Positions 4,790-31,167 of a DNA stretch of 64,000 bases are shown piece by piece. Source of the stretch: Thalassolituus oleivorans MIL-1 (lineage in GTDB: Bacteria > Pseudomonadota > Gammaproteobacteria > Pseudomonadales > Oceanobacteraceae); contig NC_020888.1 in assembly GCF_000355675.1 (NCBI RefSeq), forward strand, positions 62,001-126,000, read 5' to 3'. The position numbers and the translations under genes are program-made. A model generated the notes under the pieces. That model made no database searches. It was not told where the DNA came from and saw only the letters and a program-made list of their open reading frames with translations. The stretch's first letter is position 1, and every line of letters starts with the position of its first letter.

Positions 4790-5304
4790 TTAAATATCGC
4801 CAACGCTGCGGCTGAGTTGCTGACGTGCGCGGGTTAAACGGCTCATTACCGTGCCGATCGGTACGTTAAGAATATCGGCTGCTTCTTGATAGCTGCGGCC
4901 TTCTACAGCCACTAAGTAGAGCACGGAGCGCATTGCCTCATTCAATTTTTGCATGTGAGATTGAACCTTGTTTAAGGCGGCGCTGGCGCTGTAAACCTGT
5001 TCGGTCGATAGCGTTTGCTGCTCATAATCATGTTCTTCGTCCCACGTTTCGCTGGGCTTCTGTTTACGCATGGTATCGATCCAATAGTTTCGACATAAAC
5101 GGTACAACCAGCGATCAAAATGGCTATCGACTTGGTATTGTTGCCATCGACTGAGTGCGCGTTCAACCGATGCCTGCAATAGATCCTCCGCATTTTGCGG
5201 ATGTGATGTTAGGGCGTAGCAATAGCGCCGCAATGCTGGCAATGCTGGCAATGCGGCAATGCGGCAATCAGTTGTTGGCGAAAGGCCGATTCGGTTGTAT
5301 CCAT
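4790..5304 (-). CDS. ECF sigma factor, apparently frameshifted near its N-terminus
   Basis: The protein read in the downstream frame has sigma-70 region 2 (SHPQNAEDLLQASVERALSR, then FDRWLYRLCRNYWIDTMRKQ) and region 4 (AMRSVLYLVAVEGRSYQEAADIL with an HTH), so it is an ECF sigma factor. The natural start appears to be ATG 5304, which encodes MDTTESAFRQQLIAALP, a good ECF N-terminus. That frame reaches a stop after 31 codons because the 8/9-bp repeat tract at 5231-5268 puts the two halves out of register. Removing one 8-bp unit or adding one base would restore a protein of about 170 residues. In the frame actually open, upstream ATGs (5341, 5440) have no ribosome site and give an atypical N-terminus. 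Likely regulates the divergent subtilase gene and/or itself. Confidence 0.75.
5231..5268. repeat. 8/9-bp tandem repeat in sigma-factor gene
   Basis: Two copies of CAATGCTGG (5231-5248) are followed by two copies of CAATGCGG (5249-5264) and a partial CAAT. Read on the minus strand this is GCATTGCC with or without an extra A, encoding a Leu-Pro-Ala run. The nine-base units keep frame and the eight-base units shift it, so copy number decides whether the sigma factor is readable. Confidence 0.85.
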
Positions 5305-23100: not shown

Positions 23101-23778
23101 ATGATAGAACAGGTTTCATTGACATATACCAATACCTTCTTCGTTAAAAGTGCTGCGAAGTTGAGTCAGTGCCCCACAGATATCCTGCGTGAGGTGGCTT
23201 TTGCGGGCCGTTCGAATGCTGGGAAGTCGAGTGCGCTGAATACCCTGACCGAGTTAAAAAAACTTGCTCGAACCAGTAAAACACCGGGTCGAACACAGCT
23301 AATTAACTTCTTTCAGGTAGGTGAAGCACCCCTCGCATTGGTCGATTTACCCGGATATGGCTTTGCCAAGGTCCCGGTTGCCGTTAAAAATGAATGGCAA
23401 AAAGAACTCGATCATTATCTTAATAACCGCGATTCTTTGGTGGGATTAGTCCTGCTCATGGATATCCGCCACCCGCTGAAAGAGTTTGATAACGCTATGC
23501 TCGATTGGGCTGGTGAAACTGGAATGCCCGTGCATATCCTGTTAACCAAAGCCGATAAGCTTAAACGCGGCCCTGCTCAGTCGACTTTGCTTAAAGTAAA
23601 GAAAGCCGTTGCTGATTTGGGCGATCTGGTCACAATTCAGACATTTTCATCACTCACAGGTGATGGCATGAAAGAATTAAAGCGACGTTTGAACACTTGG
23701 CTGTTACCGCCTCTGTTGGCGGATGACGAGCAAGCAGATGATGACGTGGCTGACGACGATCTCAATACGACTGTGTAA
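23101..23778 (+). CDS. engB: Ribosome-biogenesis GTP-binding protein EngB (YsxC/YihA)
   Basis: 225 residues. GTPase motifs: G1 [10 protein letters not shown]3 [11 protein letters not shown]4 TKAD. EngB is needed for large-subunit assembly. The protein ends in an acidic tail ([15 protein letters not shown]) longer than in E. coli. The position beside cytochrome genes and near polA is conserved. The start is the first ATG of the frame; a weak GGACGG lies rather far upstream. Confidence 0.95.
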
Positions 23779-23841: not shown

Positions 23842-25698
23842 TTAGTTCATAATGAAACGCTTGATGAATTCTTGTTGATCACCTTGTTTCGACTTGCGAG
23901 TGAAGATTAAGTGACCCGAAGCACCGCTCAATGCTTCTGCCCAAGTGCCATCCCAAATTAAGGGAACTGTTCCCACGATTGGCTTGTAATGGCGAATACC
24001 ATATCCGTCTTCGTCATAATCGGCTTCTAAGCGCACACCGGGCATATCGTACAAAGGCTCACCAACGATAGGCAGGTCAACTAAGTTTGCTGCGGCAACG
24101 CTGCTTTGATTACCAACAATGGTATCGCCTGCGCCGGTTGTGATCATCAGTGGGCGAGCGCTTTTACCTGCTTGAGGATAACGGAAGTAGTCGATGTAGT
24201 TAATGGAATCGCCGTAATCCAATGCTTGTTGAATCGAGCTACGTAGTAAAACCGCTTCACTGCCGTTTGATTCGCTTGGTACTAGGTTGACGAACATCGC
24301 GTCCCACAAAATAGAGTCGGATAGTATGCTAGTGATGCCAACACCGGTTACGTGATACACCGCACCTTTCAAATCGGGTGAAAGTGCGCCGTATACAGAA
24401 CCCAGAACACCACCAAGCGATGTGCCTTCCATCATGACATTGGTTGCATCGATATCGGCAACGCCATCAGGGCAGTTGCTACACCATTTTGACCAGCTTG
24501 ATTTACCAACAACGTCGATATTCGCCAGGCTAGTTTGCAACGCACGATGAGCGGAAGCAAAGTCGATGGCATTTTGTTGAATCATGCCGATGGTTTTAGC
24601 TAACTGGTCTGTTGTCGCAATGCTTAATACATAGCCACCATCAGCCTCCGCACGATCACCGTGATTCGGGAAACCAACCGAGTAAGTGGCAATACCAATA
24701 TCCGCATTCATGTCGGTCACCGTACTATCTGTTTCTTTTGTTGCACCTAAACCATGAGCATAAAGGGCTACGGGCACAGGACCTTGGCGAGAAGCCTTCG
24801 GTAGAGTCAGGCGGAATTCTATCCACTGTTCAGTCGGTTCTTTGTCGAAATCAACAACCCCAGTACCGTCGTTGGTACGGTAGTTGTAGATTAAAACTTC
24901 ACCGTCAACGCGTGCAGCGATATTGGAATTGATGTAGTTGTAGGTGGTTTTGAGATTGCGAACCGGGTGCTCCATATCCCAAACGTTATCCACTAAGGTC
25001 TGCATTGGTTGCACAACTTCAGCACGATCACGCACAGTAAAACGCGTAGCGTTACGTACGTTTAGTGAGTTGATGCCCAATGATGTTAACAAGCTAGTTA
25101 GCTTATAAGTGTACGAGCGCTGTTCGCTTGTGCCGCTTAAAAGTTTGGAGACGATACCGGGTTCTAAATACTCTAAATCGAGTTTATCGGTAACGACGAC
25201 TAAGATTTCGTGGCCATATCCCCAGCGAACTTGTGGGAATACTTCGATGACATGGGTTTTTTCTGTCACTTTATCCGACTGAGCGTAATCGCTTACCTTA
25301 GTGCGAATCGCTACTTGTTCGCCTGTCGTTAAGTCGAATGCCATTACTGCTGTACCGCCATCGTATGGCAAAGTCGCAGCATCCGGGGCGCTGGTAAATT
25401 CGAACATCACCGGTGTGGCAGCAGAAAAACCACTAAAATCGTTAAAAATTCCTTCCGGCGTAAATCCATCATCCACCGGCAATTGGGCAATCACTTCGTC
25501 TCTTACTACGCCGTTTGGCACCGATAGGCGTTTGCCCGTCGGTGAATTGCTATCATCAAGGCTCCAGTAATTCGATGGAAATGGCAGGCCGCAAGTGCCG
25601 ACCGAGGTTGGATTGCAGTTTACATCTGCCTGAGAAGTGATAGCACTAGCGAGCAGTGCGGGCGCAAGCATCAAGCGCAATGAGCGTGTGATAGACAT
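23842..25698 (-). CDS. Exported lipase/esterase-like alpha/beta hydrolase
   Basis: 618 residues from ATG 25698 (CAGG eight bases upstream), with a signal peptide ending near ITSQA and a Cys-rich mature start. The N-terminal half (to about 290) resembles the bacterial virulence-factor lipase/VolA-type beta domain. The C-terminal half is an alpha/beta hydrolase: oxyanion loop YAHGLGATKE, nucleophile Ser427 in EGTSLGGVLG, and plausible Asp525 (GAGDTIVG) and His596 (SGHLIF). It should hydrolyse an ester outside the cytoplasm; substrate not evident. It lies between engB and polA, which are normally close together, and shares that insert with a GMC oxidase, so a lipid or sterol-ester substrate is possible but unproven. 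Confidence 0.8.
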   Translation of the reverse strand: MSITRSLRLMLAPALLASAITSQADVNCNPTSVGTCGLPFPSNYWSLDDSNSPTGKRLSVPNGVVRDEVIAQLPVDDGFTPEGIFNDFSGFSAATPVMFEFTSAPDAATLPYDGGTAVMAFDLTTGEQVAIRTKVSDYAQSDKVTEKTHVIEVFPQVRWGYGHEILVVVTDKLDLEYLEPGIVSKLLSGTSEQRSYTYKLTSLLTSLGINSLNVRNATRFTVRDRAEVVQPMQTLVDNVWDMEHPVRNLKTTYNYINSNIAARVDGEVLIYNYRTNDGTGVVDFDKEPTEQWIEFRLTLPKASRQGPVPVALYAHGLGATKETDSTVTDMNADIGIATYSVGFPNHGDRAEADGGYVLSIATTDQLAKTIGMIQQNAIDFASAHRALQTSLANIDVVGKSSWSKWCSNCPDGVADIDATNVMMEGTSLGGVLGSVYGALSPDLKGAVYHVTGVGITSILSDSILWDAMFVNLVPSESNGSEAVLLRSSIQQALDYGDSINYIDYFRYPQAGKSARPLMITTGAGDTIVGNQSSVAAANLVDLPIVGEPLYDMPGVRLEADYDEDGYGIRHYKPIVGTVPLIWDGTWAEALSGASGHLIFTRKSKQGDQQEFIKRFIMN

Positions 25699-26120
25699 AG
25701 TGGAACCTGTTTTTTTTATTGTAGGGTGCAACAGTGCCTTAGGAACCCTTATTGAATCTAGTGATAGATAAGGAATAACTGAATACTGGCCCGATTAAAT
25801 ACGTTCTGCGGGACGAAACACGCCATTTTGAGCCGACTAATAAGATTATTCTGTGAGTCATTACTCAAGTTAAAAGATCCGTGATGAACGCATCTTATTA
25901 TCAACGTGAGATTTGGCGGGCTCTATAGGCCATTTGGCCCTTTAGGAATAAATGTTAACTATCGTTAATCAATAATCAATACAAAATTTAAACGGAAAAT
26001 AACAGGCGAGGTTGCTGAGTGGGTCTATAGTGAAGTTGTTCCCTTTGATTGTGAGCCTAGGATTGGCTCTCCCGTCATAGGTAGTTCTTTTTCTTCGGTA
26101 CTTCCCCAACGATCCGAAGT
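25699..26120. other. Non-coding gap upstream of lipase gene
   Basis: About 420 bp without a credible gene. It must contain the lipase promoter at its left end. The remainder is AT-rich with no conserved RNA or mobile-element feature that I recognise, and runs into the tandem array. A minus-strand frame here (25969-26244) is a by-product of the array. Confidence 0.5.
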
Positions 26121-26690
26121 TGACCCAGTCGTTTGCCCCCAATGGCGACTGGGTCTTTTTTTGCGTATTTGTTGAACAATAAGTCGTTTGCCCACTCTCA
26201 AGGGCGACTGGGTCTTTTTTTGCGTATCGTTTGCCCACTCTCAAGGGCTACTGGGTCTTTTTTGCGTATCGTTTGCCCACTCTCAAGGGCTACTGGGTCT
26301 TTTTTGCGTATCGTTTGCCCACCCTCAAAGGCGACGGGGTCTTTTTGTCGAACAATAAGTCGTTTGCCCACTCTCCAGAGCGACTGGGTCTTTTTTTGCA
26401 TATTTGTCGAACAATAAGTCGTTTGCCCACTCTCCATAGCGACTGGGTCTTTTTTTGTTGAACAATAAGTCGTTTGCCCACCCTCAAGGGCGACGGGGTC
26501 TTTTTGTCGAACAATAAGTCGTTTGCCCACTTTCAAGGGCGACTGGGTCTTTTTTTGTTGAACAATAAGTCGTTTGCCCGCTCTCCAGAGCGACTGGGTC
26601 TTTTTTTGTCGAACAATAGGTCGTTTGCCCACTTTCAAGGGCGACTGGGTCTTTTTGTCGAACAATAAGTCGTTTGCTCTCTTCCCTTTC
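26121..26690. repeat. Tandem array of about 12 terminator-like units
   Basis: Eleven full units and one partial unit, beginning (GTTTGCC) near 26131, 26186, 26229, 26271, 26313, 26362, 26421, 26472, 26521, 26572, 26623 and 26672. Spacing is 42-59 bp. Each full unit has a conserved core of about 30 bp from GTTTGCC through an A/GGGC or AGAGC arm to GACTGGGTC (GACGGGGTC in two), then five to eight Ts. The linker is a short GCGTAT form or a longer form containing AACAATAAGTC. Most units can fold GCCC/GGGC or GCTC/GAGC plus AGTC/GACT stems followed by the T run, so each resembles an intrinsic terminator on the plus strand. Unit variants recur (for example the GACGGGG form twice), pointing to growth by local duplication. 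Confidence 0.9.
26122..26162 (+). terminator. First array unit: strong intrinsic-terminator structure
   Basis: GACCCAGTCG and CGACTGGGTC form a perfect ten-bp stem around a 14-base loop, followed directly by seven Ts. It is the only unit with a complete left arm and may be the ancestral terminator from which the array expanded. No plus-strand gene lies close upstream. Confidence 0.6.
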
Positions 26691-26781: not shown

Positions 26782-28341
26782 ATGAAAAAAATCAATCGTC
26801 GTAATTTTCTTAAAAGTTCGGCTGCTGCTGGGGTGGTCGCTAGCGCTGCAACGGCGTCGCCAATGGCGCAAGCTGGTTGGTTACGCAAAACAACTCGTTC
26901 AACGACTCGTGCTCTGATTATTGGATCTGGTTTCGGTGGTTCTGTAGCAACTTTACGTTTGGCTGAGGCTGGTGTTGAAACCATGCTCATCGAACGCGGT
27001 AAGCACTGGAAGTATGAAGGTGAAGACAGCTATCCGACCGTGGATGGCGACATAATGAAACTGAAGGTTGATGACCGAGTACTGTGGTCGGAGCCTAGCT
27101 CTTTGATCCCAGGTTCTGTCGGTATGATTCAGTACTACTTCGATAAATCCATCGCCGTTGGCTGTGGTGCCTGTCTCGGTGGCGGCTCGGTGGTGTATGG
27201 CGGTGTGTTATTGCAGCCAAAGCGTGAAATTTTTGAGCAGGCGTTGCCGTTTTTGTCGTACACCGATATGGATGAAATTTATTACCCGCGCGTACTTGCT
27301 CGTATTAGTGGTGGTCCGATTCCGGACGATGTTCTCAACCATCCGAACTACACGTCAAAACGTGAATTTATAAAAAGCGCTGAGGATGCTGGCTTAGAAG
27401 TTGTGCGCAGTCACGTAAGCTTTGATTGGGATGTGATTCGTGAAGAGCTAAATGGTACTCGTACGCCGTTTGCCTCCGTTGGTGAGTACGTATTTGGCTG
27501 TAACAGTGGCGCTAAAAATACCTTAGATCGAAACTACTTAGCCGATGCGGAAGCAACGGGTAATGTCACCATCAAAACCTTGCATAATGTGACTAATATC
27601 GTGCAGCAGCCGGGCAGTAACGGCTACGAGATTCATTGTGAAGTATTAAACGAAGAAGGCCGTATTACTGGCAAGCACATCATTGAGTGTGAGTATTTAT
27701 TCATGGGTGCTGGCTCGTTGAACACCACGCGGCTGTTGTTGAAAGCTCAAGCTTTGGGTGAAATTGCCGGCCTTAAGAATAACGATGGCATTGGCGCTGA
27801 ATGGGGTACGAATGGTGATGAACTTATGGGGCGTCGAAATATTGATACCTCTACGGCCCCTATCCAAGGTGGCCCGCCATCAATTGCTGCATTCGATTTG
27901 GAAAACCCATACAAGTCGACGGGCTTTATGCACTCTCCAACGTCCGCTGTGAAAGAGTTTACTCAGCTACAGATGGGTATGTGTGTGCCGGATAAAAACA
28001 GTCGCGTAACCTACAATAAGTACACGGATAAGGTGAGTTTGAACTGGGATCGCGATGCAAATGAAACGTCGCATCAGGCGATATTGCATAGCACAGAGAA
28101 AATGATCGCTACCGGTGGCGGCGAGCTGGTGGACATCAGTGCGTTTGGTACTTGGCATCCTCTTGGCGGCGCTGCGATGGGTTCTGCTTGTGATTACTCT
28201 GGCCGCGTGTACGGCGTTGAAAATCTATTCGTGATTGACGGCGCTTCAATCCCGGGTGCTGCCGGTGCTGCGAACCCAGCATTGACAGTTGCCGCCAATG
28301 CCGAGCGTATGATGGAGCAGATTATTCCTTTACTGGTGTAA
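26782..28341 (+). CDS. Tat-exported GMC oxidoreductase, cholesterol-oxidase-like
   Basis: 519 residues; ATG 26782 has AGGACG upstream. A twin-arginine signal (INRRNFLKSSAAAGV) predicts export of the folded flavoprotein. The FAD dinucleotide fold is IIGSGFGGSVATLRLAEAG near residue 50. The C-terminal active-site block is GTWHPLGGAAMGSA (His459), followed by GRVYGVENLFVIDGASIPG and NPALTVAANAER. This resembles the cholesterol-oxidase branch of GMC enzymes more than choline dehydrogenase. It likely oxidises a hydrophobic alcohol such as a sterol; the substrate is not proven. It lies in the engB-polA insert with the lipase-like gene, on the opposite strand, just downstream of the terminator-like array. 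Confidence 0.85.
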   Translation: MKKINRRNFLKSSAAAGVVASAATASPMAQAGWLRKTTRSTTRALIIGSGFGGSVATLRLAEAGVETMLIERGKHWKYEGEDSYPTVDGDIMKLKVDDRVLWSEPSSLIPGSVGMIQYYFDKSIAVGCGACLGGGSVVYGGVLLQPKREIFEQALPFLSYTDMDEIYYPRVLARISGGPIPDDVLNHPNYTSKREFIKSAEDAGLEVVRSHVSFDWDVIREELNGTRTPFASVGEYVFGCNSGAKNTLDRNYLADAEATGNVTIKTLHNVTNIVQQPGSNGYEIHCEVLNEEGRITGKHIIECEYLFMGAGSLNTTRLLLKAQALGEIAGLKNNDGIGAEWGTNGDELMGRRNIDTSTAPIQGGPPSIAAFDLENPYKSTGFMHSPTSAVKEFTQLQMGMCVPDKNSRVTYNKYTDKVSLNWDRDANETSHQAILHSTEKMIATGGGELVDISAFGTWHPLGGAAMGSACDYSGRVYGVENLFVIDGASIPGAAGAANPALTVAANAERMMEQIIPLLV

Positions 28342-28356
28342 TTCGCTCAATCTCAA

Positions 28357-28385
28357 GGGCGCATTGATTATTAATCAGTGCGCCT
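28357..28385. terminator. Possible shared terminator at convergent GMC/polA ends
   Basis: GGCGCA and TGCGCC arms enclose a second inverted repeat (TGATTA/TAATCA), giving a long hairpin that overlaps the last codons of polA. No strong T run, so moderate support. Confidence 0.4.
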
Positions 28386-31167
28386 GTTCCCAGTTATCGC
28401 CAATCCCTGCTTCTACTAATAACGGCACCTTTAATGCGGCGGCACACTGCATTTGTGTTTTCAGCTCGGTCGCTAGGGCTTCCGCTTGATCGGCGCGTAC
28501 TTCCAAAATCAATTCATCGTGCACTTGCAGCAGCATGCGCGCGTCAAAGCCACTGTCGGGCAGCCAATCGGCGACACGAATCATGGCGCGCTTGATGATG
28601 TCGGCGGCACTGCCTTGCATAGGGGCATTAATTGCAGTGCGTTCGGCATGTTGGCGTCGTGAAGCGTTACTGGCCTTGATGTCAGGTAAGTACAGGCGGC
28701 GGCCATAAATGGTTTCAACATAACCTTGGTCTTTGGCTTGCTCGCGGGTGTTGTCCATGTAGTCTTTTACCCCAGGATAGCGCTGGAAGTAGAGGTTCAC
28801 ATAGTCTTGAGCTTCACCACGGCCAATGCCTAACTGCTTAGCTAAACCGAAGGCAGACATGCCATAAATCAAACCAAAGTTAATGGCTTTGGCGCTGCGA
28901 CGCTGATTGTCGGTCACTTCTGCTTCATTGACGCCAAATACTTCGGCTGCTGTGGCGCGGTGAACGTCACGCTCTTCTGCAAAAGCGCTAAGGAGGCCTT
29001 CATCACCGGACAGATGCGCCATGATGCGCAGTTCGATTTGGCTGTAGTCGGCAGCCACCAGCTTGTAACCGGGTGCGGCGATAAAAGCTTGGCGGATGCG
29101 GCGACCTTCTTCTGAACGGATCGGAATGTTCTGCAAATTGGGATCGGTCGACGACAAACGACCGGTGGCAGCAATGGTCTGGTTGTACGATGTATGAATG
29201 CGGCCTGTTTTTGCATTCACCATCATCGGCAGTTTGTCGGTGTAAGTATTTTTTAATTTGGCTAAACCACGATGCTCGGTAATGACGCGCGGCAGTTCGT
29301 AGTCTTCGGCCAGTTCTGCCAGCACTTCTTCGGCGGTTGATGGTGCGCCTTTGGGCGTTTTCTTTAAGACCGGCAAGCCCTGCTCCTCAAACAAAATCAC
29401 GCCGAGTTGCTTGGGCGAACCAAGGTTGAAAACCTTACCGGCTAAATTGTGGGCTTCTTGTTCTAACTGTTGCAGGCGTTGCTCTATTTGCTGGCTTTGC
29501 TCGTGCAGCATATCGGCATCAATGATGGTGCCGATTTCTTCCATGGCGCACAGCACGGGCATGACGGGCATTTCGATGTCGGTGAATACCTTGGCAAGAC
29601 TAGGCTGCTGTTGCAGTTTTGCCCACAACACTTGGTGTAAGCGTAGAGTGATATCGGCATCTTCAGCGGCGTAGGGTCCTGCGACATCAATAGTGACTTC
29701 ATTGAAGCCAATCTGTTTGGCGCCTTTACCTGCGACTTCTTCATAGGTAATGGTTTTATGGCCAAGGTACTTGAGTGAGAGGCTGTCCATATCGTGCTTG
29801 GTGCCAACCGAATCCAACACATAGGACTCAAGTTGCGTATCAAACTCAACACCTTGCAATTGGATGCCATAGTTGGCGAGCACATGAGCGTCGTACTTTA
29901 TGTGTTGGCCGACTTTCTTTTGATTCTTATCTTCTAGTAACGGTTTTAACTGTGCCAATACTGCAGCGCGATCGAGTTGTTGTGGTGCGTCGTCGTAGTC
30001 ATGGGCGAGTGGCACATATGCCGCTTTGCCGATCTCAACGGCAAAAGAGACGCCGACAATTTCCGCTTCTTTATAGTTAAGCGAGGTGGTTTCGGTATCA
30101 AAGGCAAACAGTGAGCTGGCTTTTAGCTGGGCAATCCATGCATCTAAAGCGGCTTGCTCAAGGATGATTTCATATTGGCCTTCAAGCGCGTCTGGCATGA
30201 CATCGGTAATGACCTCTGCGGCTTCGGTTGGTTTGCCTTTGCTGGCACGGCTCGCCGTACTTTTTGCATTTGTTGTCGTGACATCAAGGTCTGGATCACT
30301 GCTGAGTTCGGCGATCCAAGCTTTGAATTCTAAATCACGATACAGGGCGAGCAGATCTTCTTTGTGTTCGTCGCTGTTTTTGAAATCCGGCAGCGCAAAT
30401 TCGAGTTCAACATCGCACTTAATGGTGGCCAGTTCCTTCGATAGAAAAGCTTGCTCTTTATGTTCTTCCAGCTTCGGCGCTAAGGTTTTCGCACCACGGA
30501 AATCAAGGGTCGCGACCTTATCGAGATTGGCGTAGATATCCTCTAAGCTGCCCAAACCCGCGACTAAGCCGACGGCGGTCTTTTCGCCGACTTTGGGTAC
30601 GCCGGGGATGTTATCGACTTTGTCGCCCATCAGCGCCAGATAGTCGATGATGTGTTCGGGCGGCACGCCGAACTTTGTTTTTACGCCTTCGATATCCATA
30701 AAGGTATCGGTCATGGTATTGATCAGGGCGACGTGCTCATTAACCAATTGCGCCATGTCTTTATCGCCGGTGGAGATCACGACATCTTGCTGATGTTGCA
30801 CCGCTTGGGAAGCCAGCGTACCAATCACGTCGTCGGCTTCAACGCCGTCGATAATCAACAAGGGCAAGCCCATGGCACGGATAATGTCGTGGATGGGCTG
30901 GATTTGTTCGCGCAGTTCTTCTGGCATTGGCGGGCGATGTGCTTTGTATTCGCTGTAAATATCGTTGCGGAAGGTTTTGCCTTTGGCATCGAATACCACG
31001 ATAACCTGTGACTCGGGATAATCCTTATTTAGGCGCTTGATCATACTGATCACGCCTTTAATGGCGTTGGTGTGTACACCTTTGGAGTTGGTTAGCAGGG
31101 GGATCGCGTGAAACGCACGAAATAAATACGACGATCCATCTACAAGAATCACGGGGTTTGATGACAT
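28375..31167 (-). CDS. polA: DNA polymerase I
   Basis: 930 residues with all three domains. The 5'-3' exonuclease opens with ILVDGSSYLFRAFHAIP. The 3'-5' proofreading exonuclease has FAFDTETTSLNYKEAEIVG with the metal-binding Asp and Glu. The polymerase has motif A DYSQIELRIMAHLSGDEG, motif B RRSAKAINFGLIYGMSAFGL and motif C QVHDELILEV. Length matches E. coli PolA. It repairs gaps and removes RNA primers. It is divergent from the DUF2782-thrB pair, as in Pseudomonas. Confidence 0.98.
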   Translation of the reverse strand: MSSNPVILVDGSSYLFRAFHAIPLLTNSKGVHTNAIKGVISMIKRLNKDYPESQVIVVFDAKGKTFRNDIYSEYKAHRPPMPEELREQIQPIHDIIRAMGLPLLIIDGVEADDVIGTLASQAVQHQQDVVISTGDKDMAQLVNEHVALINTMTDTFMDIEGVKTKFGVPPEHIIDYLALMGDKVDNIPGVPKVGEKTAVGLVAGLGSLEDIYANLDKVATLDFRGAKTLAPKLEEHKEQAFLSKELATIKCDVELEFALPDFKNSDEHKEDLLALYRDLEFKAWIAELSSDPDLDVTTTNAKSTASRASKGKPTEAAEVITDVMPDALEGQYEIILEQAALDAWIAQLKASSLFAFDTETTSLNYKEAEIVGVSFAVEIGKAAYVPLAHDYDDAPQQLDRAAVLAQLKPLLEDKNQKKVGQHIKYDAHVLANYGIQLQGVEFDTQLESYVLDSVGTKHDMDSLSLKYLGHKTITYEEVAGKGAKQIGFNEVTIDVAGPYAAEDADITLRLHQVLWAKLQQQPSLAKVFTDIEMPVMPVLCAMEEIGTIIDADMLHEQSQQIEQRLQQLEQEAHNLAGKVFNLGSPKQLGVILFEEQGLPVLKKTPKGAPSTAEEVLAELAEDYELPRVITEHRGLAKLKNTYTDKLPMMVNAKTGRIHTSYNQTIAATGRLSSTDPNLQNIPIRSEEGRRIRQAFIAAPGYKLVAADYSQIELRIMAHLSGDEGLLSAFAEERDVHRATAAEVFGVNEAEVTDNQRRSAKAINFGLIYGMSAFGLAKQLGIGRGEAQDYVNLYFQRYPGVKDYMDNTREQAKDQGYVETIYGRRLYLPDIKASNASRRQHAERTAINAPMQGSAADIIKRAMIRVADWLPDSGFDARMLLQVHDELILEVRADQAEALATELKTQMQCAAALKVPLLVEAGIGDNWEQAH

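Follow-up and report, generated by a model that had tools for sequence, protein, structure and literature searches.

The tandem array behind a conserved small RNA (sRNA) gene of Thalassolituus oleivorans MIL-1 is, on balance, likely to be a local minisatellite that was seeded by the terminator of this sRNA and whose later units are mostly neutral spacer. Only the first unit of the array is a convincing intrinsic terminator. All coordinates refer to the window, the whole 64,000-nucleotide stretch of DNA that was analysed, and its relevant features are as follows:

23101–23778, + strand: engB (YihA/YsxC GTPase), used as a locus marker; TIGR03598 at 239.2 bits, cut-off 124.45
23842–25731: esterase-like gene; weak VolA/Pla-1 match, below the cut-off
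26026–26031, + strand: -10-like element TATAGT of a putative sRNA promoter
about 26038–26162, + strand: putative sRNA gene of the engB–polA locus; conserved part 26080–26163; 32 of 44 family genomes; fold of 26033–26162, z = -4.18
26093–26119, + strand: hairpin of the sRNA, CTTCGG/CCGAAG around a C-rich loop; almost unchanged across the 25 sequences aligned
26122–26162, + strand: intrinsic terminator of the sRNA, which is unit 1 of the array; perfect 10-bp stem, C-rich loop, T7; -21 kcal/mol, z = -6.11; both partners are changed at nine of the 11 terminator pairs among relatives
26127–26679, + strand: tandem array phased on the word AGTCGTTTGC; 11 units carrying a T run, followed by an incomplete twelfth
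26129, 26184, 26227, 26269, 26311, 26360, 26419, 26470, 26519, 26570 and 26621, + strand: starts of the box TCGTTTGCCC, with a partial copy at 26670
26163–26679, + strand: additional DNA downstream of the terminator, made up of the unit 1 flank, the ten truncated copies and the partial one; no match in 43 family relatives; RNA fold, z = 0.01
26668–26679, + strand: partial last copy AGTCGTTTGCTC, matching the array start at 26127, without a T run
26782–28341, + strand: GMC oxidoreductase with a Tat signal, behind the array; PF05199 and PF00732 above cut-off
28375–31167, - strand: polA, DNA polymerase I, used as a locus marker; PF00476, NF004397

The sRNA gene reaches well beyond this genome. 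A DNA search with 25990–26690 gave matches in seven of nine genus genomes (own included; the two without a match are 80% and 84% complete) and, with the same query and the own genome again counted, in 32 of 44 genomes across the family, representing seven of eight genera. In the relatives these matches were confined to query positions 79–189, which cover the sRNA with its terminator and no more than 15 bases of what follows, while the truncated units lay outside. Loci were fetched for 29 of the 31 matching relatives, and 24 of the 29 were aligned with the window (L020, L021, L025 and L029 were omitted as near-duplicates, and L036 because a contig end cuts the locus). Standard pairs fill 95.5% of the 425 pair cells of this alignment, and at nine of 17 pairs both partners had changed, a number reached in none of 500 shuffles (mean 4.8). 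All nine sit in the terminator helix, and hairpin 1 shows none because it varies too little. The putative sRNA has the conserved helices and compensatory changes of a structured RNA. Of 28 family loci (one further locus was skipped), 23 have a -10-like CTATA[GT]T motif 63–102 nt before the first hairpin; the start of the sRNA is placed by the -10-like element of the window, which is presumed to act as its promoter, and its expression, too, is presumed from the sequence.

Over positions 26073–26162 the sRNA is nearer to genera g8 and g3 (92–96% identity) than to own-genus genomes (81–85%), and engB (23101–23778) is also nearer to most g8 and g3 loci (L015, 81%; L017, 80%) than to L007 (74%), the one genus locus holding engB. 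Two loci, L019 (1477–1516) and L020 (1486–1516), have 15 bp of the sRNA (TTCGGTACTTTTTTC) duplicated in tandem within its 5' part, a sign that small expansions recur at this gene.

The genomic position of the sRNA is also conserved. In 24 of the 29 family loci engB lies within about 3 kb, accompanied in eight of those 24 by polA, and in the other five the esterase and GMC genes stand on either side of the sRNA, as in the window. There, the esterase-like gene, the sRNA, the array and the GMC oxidoreductase lie between engB and polA. The esterase-like and GMC genes have come between the two markers, and this pair flanks the sRNA in five genus relatives too. Among nine named relatives, the GMC gene is 75–76% identical in six, of which five bear the name Thalassolituus, Oceanobacter or Oleibacter and the sixth that of Oceanospirillaceae. 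In the window the sRNA and engB point the same way, and so they do in 21 of the 24 family loci where engB is present. The remaining three (L034, L035 and L036, of genus g7) have the sRNA facing against engB, and an inversion of the small gene on the spot seems to have taken place in them.

Rfam thresholds place the window sRNA outside both ErsA and sX13. Against the ErsA model (RF01719) the window reaches 17.3 bits, where the gathering score is 50, and a search of the own genome with this model gave no match at E 0.001. At the same E-value, 11 of 145 order genomes have a match to this model (four above the gathering score), and none of 14 control genomes has one. All four above-threshold ErsA loci lie beside polA and three of them beside engB, a polA–engB position that the window sRNA shares, with two genes inserted; the four run with polA, an orientation like that of the sRNA in L034–L036, whereas the window sRNA runs with engB. 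The sX13 model (RF02232) is absent from the matches of the window and reaches 24.3–24.7 bits in two of six relatives, against a gathering score of 50. Across the relatives Rfam gave no clear favourite, with ErsA, sX13, RgsA and a betaproteobacterial sRNA all at 17–25 bits, below gathering. Nonetheless, ErsA, Spot 42 and sX13 resemble the window sRNA in their place beside polA or engB and in having a hairpin and a terminator with C-rich loops. PMC3771888 puts sX13, with three stems and C-rich loops, downstream of polA, compares this location with that of Spot 42 and raises the question of sRNAs at the polA loci of other bacteria, while a table row in PMC3349714 marks a Pseudomonas aeruginosa sRNA at engB as Spot42. 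The excerpt of PMC5819304 says nothing on the place of ErsA and that of PMC6304351 nothing on sRNAs or GMC, and the titles and abstract openings returned by a literature search included no work on Thalassolituus sRNAs.

A covariance model built from the window sRNA (R1) extended these comparisons, with matches in 58 of 293 order genomes. Synteny was examined for the best 30 R1 loci of these 58 matching genomes: nine belong to the own family, and engB or polA is present in 19 of the other 21. L082 and L084 have neither gene and are RgsA-like (RF00628 at 34.6 and 77.2 bits, gathering score 88.4). R1 thus also matches RgsA-like sRNAs, and its matches without synteny therefore cannot be counted as the window sRNA. 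Among distant engB–polA sRNAs, L078 (1501–1580, 31.3 bits) and L071 (1489–1580, 25.4 bits) gave matches to the Rfam family anti-hemB, for which PMC3521395 has a table row; both fall below its gathering score of 49.5, and they hint at a wider relation between engB-linked sRNAs.

Unit 1 is what ends this gene. Its stem, GACCCAGTCG/CGACTGGGTC, lies in a fold of 12 pairs that includes the perfect 10-bp stem already described in the earlier note, and it has the stable G-C-rich stem directly followed by a T run that defines an intrinsic terminator. That note had further seen a short stem and a T run in each unit and had taken every unit for a terminator-like hairpin facing the + strand. Short stems can indeed be drawn in units 2–11 (e.g. 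GCCC/GGGC) and 11 units have a T run, but that every unit is a terminator is not supported, as a stable stem directly before the T run was found in none of units 2–11, whether by folding (nine of the ten) or by scoring (all ten). No strong stem adjoins these T runs because the outer 5' arm GACCC is absent from all ten units. Folded singly from six bases upstream of the box, nine of the ten gave z-scores of only -1.56 to +1.29 (unit 26269 was omitted, being identical to unit 26227). A terminator score of the d'Aubenton Carafa form, applied in a strict and a looser version, was +28.8 for unit 1 and, for the ten later units, -12.4 to -36.0 (looser) and -27.3 to -49.9 (strict). As background we used 233 other T5+ runs on both strands of the window, of which 85 had no hairpin and the remainder a median of -38; 2.6% of the 233 reach the score of unit 1, while 9–28% reach those of single later units. 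The later units are therefore well below a terminator, yet somewhat above an ordinary T run, which counts against our favoured reading. The 517-nt array shows no excess structure as RNA (49 of 100 shuffles fold as well), and a simple consensus scan, whose permitted loop is shorter than that of unit 1, gave two terminator-like sites, both inside the array; the number expected for the region was 2.3.

These results bear on the proposal that the array blocks read-through into the GMC gene. Ten weak T-run sites could act as a cumulative fail-safe, catching polymerase that leaks past unit 1 and so insulating the GMC gene from the sRNA promoter. While runs of 5–7 T are kept in units 1–11, all on the + strand, and short CCCA/TGGG-type hairpins can be drawn beside the T run in some units, the looser terminator score puts all ten later units at -12.4 to -36.0, and neither single units nor the array have excess structure. 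The invariance of the box and of GGGTC would also fit such a function, but five genus relatives with the same sRNA–GMC arrangement manage with a single terminator and no array: their terminators lie 114, 114, 149, 155 and 167 bp from the GMC gene, compared with 619 bp to the GMC start codon in the window, of which 517 are array. We keep the fail-safe as an unlikely alternative.

The favoured reading, a minisatellite grown from the terminator, draws on the anatomy of the array, which consists of imperfect head-to-tail copies at one locus. Units are 42–59 bp long and the spacing between boxes is not constant (55, 43, 42, 42, 49, 59, 51, 49, 51, 51 and 49). About 12 tandem units of this length had been reported on the + strand; their tandem arrangement stands, with the amendment that 11 of them have a T run and the twelfth is partial and lacks one. 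The sequences TCGTTTGCCC and GGGTCTTTTT, with 11 copies each, are the commonest + strand 10-mers of the window, and Tandem Repeats Finder scored the array at 302 to 591 and found one other tandem locus in the window, a minor one at 5230–5268. Units 2–11 all carry the 3' arm CGACTGGGTC, with one base changed in four of them, and the loop in all ten is four bases longer than in unit 1, so that a single altered copy was probably their common ancestor. The identity of units 26227 and 26269, together with the 98% likeness of units 26311 and 26470, fits later local copying. The box is invariant across the 11 units, and in units 2–11 variable columns number none of 15 in the box and GGGTC and eight of 16 in between, although these segments were picked after the data had been seen. 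Such uneven variation could mean constraint and, along with the T runs kept in all ten units, counts against neutrality.

The word AGTCGTTTGC occurs at 26127 and again at 26668, one copy at either end of the array, as a tandem duplication between short repeats would leave. We suggest that the founding duplication took place between two copies of this word, one in the 5' arm of the terminator and one just downstream. The duplicated segment would have comprised the inner 5' arm, the loop, the whole 3' arm, the T run and the flank, leaving the outer GACCC arm behind, and slippage together with unequal exchange may then have produced the ten truncated copies; the order of these duplications is our reconstruction from the units themselves. 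Unit 1 would still terminate the sRNA, whereas units 2–11, unable to form the full stem, would lie ahead of the GMC gene as an almost neutral spacer. Expansion of a terminator by slippage was one of three options in the earlier note and is the best supported of them, with the additions that the terminator is that of a conserved sRNA and that the copies are truncated. Most likely the array is for the most part neutral and does little.

A 3' arm kept in each unit would also suit an RNA sponge, in which array RNA with about ten such arms titrates or unfolds the sRNA, and the predicted duplex of the sRNA with one unit reaches -34.9 kcal/mol. However, such complementarity is automatic from copying, no array promoter was found, and most transcripts should already stop at unit 1, so that we consider a sponge extremely doubtful. 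Equally doubtful is a feedback version, in which the 3' arms of read-through RNA would invade the terminator stem of the sRNA and leakage would lower sRNA activity in step with copy number. Were the sponge true, it would be a slippage-prone feedback made from the 3' end of the sRNA itself.

As expected for a minisatellite, the array is local. The 570-bp array query found one place in the own genome (3,920,328 bases, one contig), and a pattern of box, gap and GGCGAC had six exact matches there, all in the array (reversed control, 0). With up to two mismatches, CGACTGGGTCTTTTT matched 19 times, 11 of them in the array (0–1 mismatches) and eight elsewhere (all with two), against 14 for the reversed control. 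Dispersal of the units genome-wide, which the earlier note had named as evidence that would speak against it, was thus looked for in the own genome and not seen, and the array does not have the many genomic places of a dispersed repeat family. Searched alone against 390 order genomes, the array matched four: the own genome, the sRNA terminators of two relatives and one unrelated terminator. When Tandem Repeats Finder was applied to L002 and to 65 loci of sRNA relatives, among which some places occur twice, such an array came up only in L002 and L059, both from the own genome. With one genome compared per species, the array is best read as species-specific.

This distribution also weighs on the idea that the array is a set of protein-binding or recombination sites, the repeated site being the box TCGTTTGCCC or the word TTGTYGAACAA. 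An invariant box in 11 units is what such sites might show, but the exact box-gap-arm matches have no dispersed copies, the spacing varies between 42 and 59 bp, and no array match was seen in the relatives searched. Finding no positive evidence for the idea, which the earlier note had also put forward, we think it very improbable.

Several other identities were considered and set aside. A stop-free frame of 155 amino acids on the - strand (26198–26665) had no NCBIfam hit at E 0.001 and is probably a by-product of the repeat. A phage or plasmid origin was rejected: the array had no match in plasmids or phages, and a pattern for one unit had no exact counterpart in viral contigs. For a known RNA family of the array, Rfam hits were far below gathering scores; for a tRNA-linked element, the window has no tRNA; and for a CRISPR, inspection showed the spacers to be copies of one another. 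The idea of a conserved GMC promoter common to the relatives was likewise dropped, as the alignment from array to GMC gene is weak (45% mean column identity).

Among known systems, the array resembles bacterial intergenic minisatellites or VNTRs, with their head-to-tail, imperfect units of tens of bp and recent local duplications, and differs from them in that its unit is a truncated sRNA terminator. Tandem intrinsic terminators of the rrn T1-T2 type stand behind a transcript; they share with the array more than one T-run element in this position, but in the array only the first has a full stem. REP/BIME elements are dispersed palindromic repeats which, like the array, are short and have inverted-repeat parts, whereas the array occupies one genomic place. 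Among the matches listed in a literature search, the titles and abstract openings held nothing on tandem terminators or terminator-derived tandem repeats.

What appeared to be a terminator array is thus reassigned to an sRNA locus, where it shows how the terminator of an sRNA can seed a minisatellite, and the number of its units might be of use in telling strains apart. Beyond the array, most genomes of this marine family have a structured sRNA, below Rfam thresholds, at the polA–engB position, a finding relevant to the question about polA loci raised in PMC3771888.
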